Positions 33,955 to 36,085 of a stretch of DNA of 47,487 bases are shown here, piece after piece. The notes beneath the pieces were generated by a model. The model saw only the letters and a list, made by a program, of their open reading frames with translations. It made no database searches and had not been told where the DNA came from. A program made the translations under genes and the position numbers. How positions within the stretch are numbered: position 1 is the stretch's first letter; every line of letters starts with the position of its first letter. The stretch is from Nitrosopumilaceae archaeon AB1(1) (GTDB lineage Archaea; Thermoproteota; Nitrososphaeria; Nitrososphaerales; Nitrosopumilaceae): positions 416,765-464,251 of the forward strand of contig CP136752.1 in assembly GCA_033471095.1 (NCBI GenBank). The letters are read 5' to 3'.

Positions 33955-34078
33955 CAAATACTTTTTTCTTAAAGTCAGCAAAGTTATCAGATAGAGATTG
34001 TTCGTACTGACTAAAATTATCTTGCAAAGACGACTTTGCATCCTCGATCAACTTTGATATCTCATACTTGGTGTTCAT
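33941..34078 (-). CDS. 45-residue protein at the end of the ATP synthase operon
   Basis: An ATG at 34078, inside the 3' end of atpD (17-base overlap), opens 'MNTKYEISKLIEDAKSSLQD' and runs 45 codons to TAA. The peptide is helical and charged, with hydrophobic residues in heptad-like spacing, and has no membrane segment. Overlap with atpD suggests translational coupling. Its size and helical character resemble a small stalk or assembly factor, but I do not recognise it. It is reported because codon use is sensible and the position is operonic. Confidence 0.55.
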   Translation of the reverse strand: MNTKYEISKLIEDAKSSLQDNFSQYEQSLSDNFADFKKKVFEKIG

Positions 34079-34631
34079 GCTTACGCTCCATTTTTTCTTT
34101 CAATTTTTTAAGTTTTGCAAATTCTTCACGCTCACGTTCCTCAAGGGTAGCTAAAATGAAGCGTATTTGTCGTTGATATTGTGGAATTATAATATTTTCA
34201 AGTGCGTTTAGGAGTTTTTGTGTCTTCTCTAATGCTTTGGCTAAACTGAATATTGAATTTTCATATTCAGCAGCTTTGCAAATCATTGGAAGTAGAGTTT
34301 TGATTTGTTTTGCAGCTCTATCAATAGACGAGTTGGTATCTGCAAAACCGTAGGGCATCGATTCTGTATTTTTTTCAGTTAGAGTTAGTGTTGGTATTTT
34401 TACATCTACTACACGACGCATGTTTGATTCTACCTCCATTACTGCTTGTGTAGATTGAGCTGTAGAGTCTACAGTTGTAGTACCAAGAATAAGATATGCC
34501 TCTTTTACAGAAGTATAGATGTCTTGGAGTGGATCCCATATTCCTCCACGCGCCTTTGATGCCTCATCAATCATCTCTTCAATATTTTTTAACAATACTT
34601 TACGTTTATCGTCTAGAATCTTTTGTACCAT
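34062..34631 (-). CDS. atpD: A-type ATP synthase subunit D (central stalk)
   Basis: 189 residues from the ATG at 34631. It is a long coiled coil: 'KILDDKRKVLLKNIEEMIDE' at the start and 'NALENIIIPQYQRQIRFILA' near the end are subunit D signatures. The frame is open further upstream and encodes 'AATKIELLKYKRSSQVAV', which matches the expected family N-terminus. Before it is TGA (34686-34688), preceded in the same frame by a TTG-led 'SFGQN' (from 34706). So either an in-frame TGA interrupts the true N-terminus, a non-standard start is used, or the protein is truncated by about 18 residues. Subunit D is the rotor shaft. Confidence 0.88.
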   Translation of the reverse strand: MVQKILDDKRKVLLKNIEEMIDEASKARGGIWDPLQDIYTSVKEAYLILGTTTVDSTAQSTQAVMEVESNMRRVVDVKIPTLTLTEKNTESMPYGFADTNSSIDRAAKQIKTLLPMICKAAEYENSIFSLAKALEKTQKLLNALENIIIPQYQRQIRFILATLEEREREEFAKLKKLKEKMERKHEHQV

Positions 34632-34708
34632 AACTGCAACTTGACTTGAACGTTTATACTTTAATAGTTCAATTTTTGTCGCAGCTCAGTTTTGACCAAA
34701 TGACAATA

Positions 34709-36085
34709 TTATTCACCAAAGTATTTGTCAATGTACTTGTCTTTAATTTTAGTAAGCTCATTTTTTGGCAGGTTAGATACTACTTTCCAAGATAATGCCA
34801 AAGTCTCGTCGATTGAACGATTCTCATCTACTGCTTGTGTTAGAAATTGCTTCTCAAATACATCTCCTACATCCATATACTTTAGATCAACGTCAGTAAG
34901 ACCGGCTTTGCCTACGATTCCTGCAAGTGCTCGTACTTCTTGTGCTCGTGAATAGGCATCATAATTTTGATTGGATACTTCCTGATGATCCTCTCGTGTA
35001 CTACCCTCGCCAATACCGTCTTTCATTAGTCTGCTCAGACTCATCAATATGTTAACAGGTGGATATACCCCCTGTCTAAACAGATCACGGCCAAGCACAA
35101 TCTGCCCTTCAGTGATGTAACCGGTAAGATTTGGAATTGGGTGAGTGATATCATCAGATGGCATTGAGAGTATAGGGACTTGGGTAACGCTTCCTTTTTT
35201 CCCTACTAGTCTTCCTGCACGTTCATAAATTGTAGAGAGATCAGTATAGAGATATCCAGGATACCCCTTTCTTCCAGGTACCTCTTCTCGTGCAGCACTA
35301 ATTTCACGCAATGCTTCTGCATAGTTTGTCATATCTGTTAGAATTACTAGTACATGCATTCCCAACTCAAATGCTAAATATTCAGCTGCTGTCAAGGCAA
35401 CACGTGGTGTAATGATTCTCTCAATAGCTGGATCATCTGCTAGATTCAAAAATAGTACACTTCTCTTCAGAGCACCAGACTCTTCAAGACTCTTTTTGAA
35501 ATACTCTGCCTCACTAAACTGCACACCAATGGCTGCAAATACGACTGCAAATTCATCAGTACCTACTACTGTAGCTTGTCGTGCAATTTGAGCAGCAAGT
35601 ATATTATGAGACATTCCAGAGCCAGAAAAGATTGGAAGTTTTTGACCACGCACTAGGGTAATCATACCATCAATTACAGATATACCGGTTTGGATAAAGT
35701 CCTTGGGATATTCACGTTGTTGTGGATTCATCGGTTCACCATTAATATCGACAAATTGATCTGCAACTGGATCAGGTAAATCATCTTTTGCTCTGCCAAG
35801 ACCATCGAATACACGACCTAGTAATTCACGTGATACAGGCATCTTCATGACACTGCCAACAAATTTTGCACTAGTCCCAGAGATAGATAGACCAGTTGTT
35901 CCCTCAAAGACCTGAACTATAGCCTTGCCATGCCCAATCTCAAGTACTTTACCTAGTCTGCGTTCACCATCACTAGTCTGAATCTCTACCAATTCGTCGA
36001 ATGAGGCATTTTGTACATCATCAACAATTACAAGTGGGCCTTTGATCTCAGCTATCTTGCTATACTCTACTCCACCTGATGTCAA
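34709..36085 (-). CDS. atpB: A-type ATP synthase subunit B (regulatory)
   Basis: 458 residues, full length. '[20 protein letters not shown]' stands where catalytic subunits carry a P-loop, as expected for the non-catalytic B subunit. '[20 protein letters not shown]', '[14 protein letters not shown]' and '[20 protein letters not shown]' are strongly conserved. It alternates with subunit A in the A3B3 head. The start overlaps the atpA stop by 4 bases (ATGA), so the two are translationally coupled and made in equal amounts. Confidence 0.97.

Follow-up and report, generated by a model that had tools for sequence, protein, structure and literature searches.

An in-frame stop codon near the start of atpD

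As published, the atpD gene of an ammonia-oxidising archaeon of the Nitrosopumilaceae contains a TGA codon close to the start of its reading frame. Is this codon real and, if so, how does the cell make subunit D of its A/V-type ATP synthase? The genome, referred to here as G000, is a single contig of 1,455,463 bases (97.5% complete), and the gene lies on the minus strand of a window, i.e., the whole stretch of DNA covered by an earlier note, of 47,487 nucleotides. On that strand, the stop codon TAA of atpB (34711-34709) is followed by TA, a TTG codon (34706-34704), codons for SFGQN, the TGA (34688-34686, or G000:C1:451450-451452), AATKIELLKYKRSSQVAV and the first ATG (34631-34629). In the window sequence, a single frame starting two bases past atpB reads TTG-SFGQN-TGA-AATKIELLKY, which confirms the layout proposed in the earlier note.

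The TTG and the SFGQN codons (34689..34706) form the conserved N-terminus ahead of the TGA (34686..34688). A GGTGA sequence six bases ahead of the TTG, within the 3' end of atpB (34713..34717), may act as a Shine-Dalgarno motif. The rest of atpD (34062..34685) is intact: when read from past the TGA, it covers the full Pfam profile ATP-synt_D (PF01813; E 1.1e-49, positions 1-196 of 196), which identifies it as subunit D of an A/V-type ATP synthase, and comparison with homologs revealed no frameshift. A gene caller would give a 189-aa open reading frame from the first ATG past the TGA (34062..34631), which matches profile positions 16-196 of 196. The upstream neighbor, atpB (34709..36085), is intact. 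Only one A-type atpD match was found in G000, in line with the earlier view of the gene as single-copy.

Conservation of the AtpD N-terminus

The N-terminus was aligned with those of 88 distinct related genes in which it is complete; 10 minus-strand loci, whose N-termini are identical in kind to those counted, one locus with Ns and one starting late were left out of this count. Codon 7, the position of the TGA, encodes Val in 86 and Ala in two of the relatives, and none of the 88 has a stop in codons 1-25. The start codon is ATG in 84 relatives, GTG in three and TTG in one. The residues of SFGQN are almost invariant (S, F and Q in 88/88, G in 85, N in 84), and codons 8-24 of G000 are relative-like; the TGA does lie within a conserved N-terminus, as the earlier note held. 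In codons 2-6, G000 differs from the relatives by a mean of 2.2 synonymous and 0.08 non-synonymous changes, which exceeds a chance resemblance, and in codons 8-25 by 7.6 and 2.6, respectively. Since the codons flanking the TGA retain their amino acids, the N-terminus is not drifting, and the large excess of synonymous changes means that it was translated until very recently, is still translated, or that the TGA is unreal.

These data bear on several explanations. A selenocysteine codon would be expected to align with Cys or Sec, whereas the 88 relatives have Val or Ala. In a pseudogene, constraint would be lost along the gene, but only 2 of 99 invariant AtpD sites are altered in G000 besides the stop, and the frame is not shifted. 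Another option is that the TGA is real and that translation begins beyond it, at the ATG (34631) or at a rare ATT start (34673), yielding an AtpD shorter by ~11-25 residues. The ATG does begin an uninterrupted frame that retains a match to PF01813, and codon 25, directly ahead of this ATG, is variable among the relatives. However, the relative-like residues in codons 8-24 would then be unexplained, the ATG would cut off positions 1-15 of the Pfam domain, no purine-rich ribosome-binding site was seen by eye ahead of the ATG, whereas GGTGA precedes the TTG, and the mid-gene stops in other genes discussed below, such as those for RpoA1 and MetK, would be left unaccounted for. We regard such a downstream start as quite improbable, and the real loss of 18-24 residues from AtpD considered in the earlier note is not supported.

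Stop codon usage and tRNAs

A reassignment of UGA or UAA was rejected. In genes with agreed ends, TAA, TGA and TAG all terminate normally (81, 44 and 41 of 166 genes, respectively, and 101, 61 and 58 of 220 in a second count). Thus, UGA has not been dropped as a terminator genome-wide, and global recoding, which the earlier note had thought unlikely, is indeed so. A tRNA search of G000 yielded 41 matches at E <= 0.1, rising to 43 at E <= 10. The 11 weakest of the former were all typed by ARAGORN with introns allowed, except L157, among the results listed. The typed tRNAs include no suppressor and no true UCA anticodon, although tRNA-Trp itself was not recovered among them; the sole UCA report, an SeC(UCA) call by ARAGORN at L150, is a Met tRNA (CAU) with a 17-nt intron. 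Furthermore, L156 was typed as Thr but resembles Ser(CGA) by inspection, and L158 and L160 are Gln and Glu tRNAs, seemingly with introns at unusual places.

The TGA could also be real, with readthrough by near-cognate decoding or owing to weak termination, in a lineage whose essential genes can accommodate isolated UAA and UGA codons, at the cost of a reduced AtpD yield. The conservation of the amino acids flanking the TGA fits this option, and readthrough has been proposed to be frequent in prokaryotes in the abstract of one study (PMC7918605). Nevertheless, all three stop codons are normal terminators in G000, including in the contexts CGT-GGC-TAA, AAA-GGT-TAA and GAT-TGA, which all occur at agreed gene ends, and the typed tRNAs lack a suppressor. 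A rule by which UAA after Gly and UGA after Asp are read through was rejected as well, as identical codon pairs properly terminate genes; GAT-TGA was found at four and GGY-TAA at two agreed ends, so these contexts are not avoided. Readthrough would have to rescue both UAA and UGA in genes that the cell cannot afford to have terminated, even though these codon pairs properly end genes elsewhere. On balance, readthrough at atpD appears unlikely.

Isolated stops in other genes

The atpD gene is not singled out: other essential genes of G000 also contain isolated stops. A sample of 447 kb of G000, i.e., the window and 20 spaced stretches, was compared with open reading frames of four family members, each represented by 416-420 kb (1.68 Mb in all; 674 genes). 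Among 195 G000 genes covered by homologs (56,266 codons), seven are interrupted by an isolated TAA or TGA where the sense frame is conserved. Besides atpD, these are the genes, identified from Pfam matches, for RNA polymerase A (RpoA1; codon 734, TAA, L171:15590), S-adenosylmethionine synthetase (MetK; TGA, L169:15097), cytochrome oxidase subunit II (COX2; codon 49, TAA, L165:13223), ribosomal protein S6e (codon 88, TAA, L169:2793), carbamoyl-phosphate synthase (carB; codon 617, TGA, L176:2883) and a radical-SAM protein (codon 78, TGA, L171:1853). An eighth, weaker case is in a nucleotidyltransferase gene. RpoA1 and COX2 each have a single match in G000, and their relatives lack a stop at these sites. 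Real stops in RpoA1, MetK and S6e would be lethal or severely damaging.

The seven accepted stops remained from 21 flagged in G000; one other was in the carB insert described below, and 13 were set aside as they were in a short open reading frame with six stops, in frames antisense to genes such as atpK, or in frames lacking verified sense. In the 674 control genes, none was accepted, all 37 flagged stops being set aside on inspection as N-terminal over-extensions of mechanically defined open reading frames, frames inside rRNA genes, probable antisense frames or the carB insert. A stricter filter left six true stops in 72 places of G000, which are enriched for broken genes because the relatives of five of these were fetched for being broken, versus none within gene bodies in 252 control places; MetK failed the two-genome filter of this test. 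A homology-free tally of stops followed by an open frame, a weak point of the error reading discussed below, showed no overall excess in G000 (44 versus 36-42 in the controls), nor, when both sides were required to be long, a number above all controls (17 versus 19, 8, 8 and 6).

Could these stops reflect genuine decay? A real and recent stop in a fast, perhaps host-associated lineage, with atpD failing or polymorphic, would agree with the mean identity of G000 to its relatives of 63.5%, versus 73-76% among the controls. Also, carB (L176:1131-4280) seems relaxed and may be decaying, with 33 of 542 invariant residues altered, far above any relative. With carB set aside, however, the genes with stops are not clearly relaxed, although the radical-SAM gene is somewhat above the controls (MetK was outside this test), and AtpD is otherwise conserved, as described above. 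Moreover, the single-copy genes atpD, rpoA1 and metK are known to be indispensable. Decay of atpD is therefore a highly improbable explanation.

The stops could instead be errors in the published sequence. Uncorrected long-read errors are usually indels, and the small number of frameshifts found in addition to the stops, with four junctions in the 195 genes, counts against this reading. A gene of 423 aa (L162:16540-17767) shows an apparent one-base frameshift past codon 317.

Sequence motifs around the stops

Every stop except that of atpD is one base away from the residue found in the relatives, and the changes recur in the motifs GAT[C>T], GGT[C>T] and GGYT[C>A]ATCC. Of the six stops that stand in place of Arg or Gln in the relatives, five come after GAT or GGT (P 1.5e-5, based on codon frequencies), with GAT[C>T]GA occurring three times and GGT[C>T]AA twice; for Arg, an A>T change from AGA is also possible. 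Uniform random base errors are disfavoured, because Gln and Arg account for 13% of the single-base routes to a stop and yet for six of the seven single-step cases, a tally that includes the weaker nucleotidyltransferase site. The third motif, a change from GGYTCATCC to GGYTAATCC, was found in RpoA1 (GGC-TAA-TCC) and in the repeats of giant Ig-like surface proteins. In the latter, TAA replaces TCA in 15 of 33 GGY units and in none of 24 GAC units (58 units listed), and both versions are found on several otherwise identical backgrounds. Because it recurs and depends on a base located three positions upstream, this C>A change resembles a motif-linked misreading more than an inherited difference. 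The giant proteins (L161, L164, L176, L177 and L179) contain PF16403 repeats in units of 225 and 459 bp. In another surface-protein repeat, TAA stands in place of CAA in 3 of 14 copies.

Other features of the assembly point in the same direction. C>T-type events specific to G000 at invariant residues lie in GRT[C] in 7 of 26 cases, versus 4 of 52 in the controls. Isolated single Ns number 19 in the 447 kb of G000 and zero in the 1.68 Mb of the four controls, and the D12 adenine-methyltransferase family (Dam-class) is matched four times in G000. In a benchmark of nanopore sequencing, assembly errors were located within GATC, and C was turned into T two bases downstream of a 6mA (PMC12392509). 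By analogy, modified (methylated) bases in G000 may have been misread in long-read data and left uncorrected, which would generate isolated stops. Recurrence at motifs and absence from the controls, as expected for methylation-linked consensus errors, were both found for the set of stops, with the atpD site lying outside the motifs.

As similar isolated stops occur at recurring motifs in other core genes, the atpD TGA most likely is a sequence error as well and not an instance of new decoding. Hence, we consider it probable that the published consensus is wrong at the TGA, a base error having been among the options listed in the earlier note, and that codon 7 is a sense codon in the cell, with full-length AtpD being made from the TTG. 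It would then belong to a large set of isolated base substitutions introduced in error, several of which are tied to short motifs. We infer all three elements of this scenario: the long-read platform, methylation as the cause, and atpD itself being such a case. The atpD site, AAC-TGA-GCT, matches none of the recurring motifs, and a change from GTN or GCN to TGA requires two base changes, which leaves some room for a real TGA that is read through. The weakness of genome-wide k-mer shifts also speaks against an error: GTCAAC is scarce and GTTAAC abundant, yet there is no clear depletion of GATC. Such shifts were rejected as evidence of C>T miscalling, since composition confounds them, and a k-mer signal near CTGAGC, the hexamer of the atpD site, was traced to the tandem repeats of the giant proteins and not to atpD.

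The pattern in the other genes also has an interpretation that does not invoke error. The replacement of mostly Arg (by UGA) and Gln or Ser (by UAA), which affects genes without clear relaxation, and the repeated TAA on several backgrounds in the giant surface proteins, are compatible with readthrough. The lineage might truly have isolated UAA and UGA codons in giant surface proteins as well as within essential genes, and read through them efficiently in a site-dependent manner, with neither a code change nor a suppressor tRNA, but we deem this very unlikely. Overall, the interpretation of the atpD TGA in the earlier note is partly supported.

An insert in carB

As a by-product of the search, a conserved insert of 20-22 nt was found in the N-terminal region of carB, at the motif GE^FDYSGSQ, in G000 (L176:1107-1130) and in 25 of 29 family loci (L302-L330), the other four lacking it. 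The length in the relatives is 20 nt in five, 21 nt in 17 and 22 nt in three loci; thus, in 8 of 25 loci the length is not divisible by three, and a stop is present in most inserts. Single-sequence folds of the inserts of G000, L308 and L311 gave a hairpin in which a bulge of three bases adjoins a short GGCG/CGYC helix, while those of L310, L312 and L326 differ somewhat in the bulge/helix part. The insert looks like a bulge-helix-bulge intron within an mRNA, and excision of 'A..AA' would restore GEFD. As of 2009, the cbf5 transcript was the sole archaeal pre-mRNA with confirmed splicing, according to one report (PMC2738675), and no description of a carB intron was found among the titles and abstract openings of the papers searched.

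Implications and comparison with known systems

If the stops are errors, a nominally high-quality, single-contig genome can have 3-4% of its well-conserved genes broken in annotation, and motifs suffice to reveal such a pattern when reads are lacking. If they are real, current views on termination fidelity would be upset by an archaeon that tolerates stops in RNA polymerase, MetK and ATP synthase.

In code 4, UGA encodes Trp. Codes with reassigned UGA resemble the present case in having an in-frame UGA in a conserved gene. In contrast, UGA ends approximately one quarter of the genes here, the relatives have Val or Arg rather than Trp at the affected sites, and UAA is affected too.

The in-frame stops of prokaryotes described in the abstract of PMC7918605 are likewise located within genes that are otherwise under apparent purifying selection. 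Here, however, they concentrate in one genome, at motifs, and in genes in which termination would be lethal.

Compared with the nanopore assemblies in PMC12392509, the platform is presumed here, the atpD site is off-motif and two changes are needed. What the two have in common is that isolated substitutions, C read as T among them, occur at particular motifs, including GATC, and that only some occurrences of these motifs are hit.
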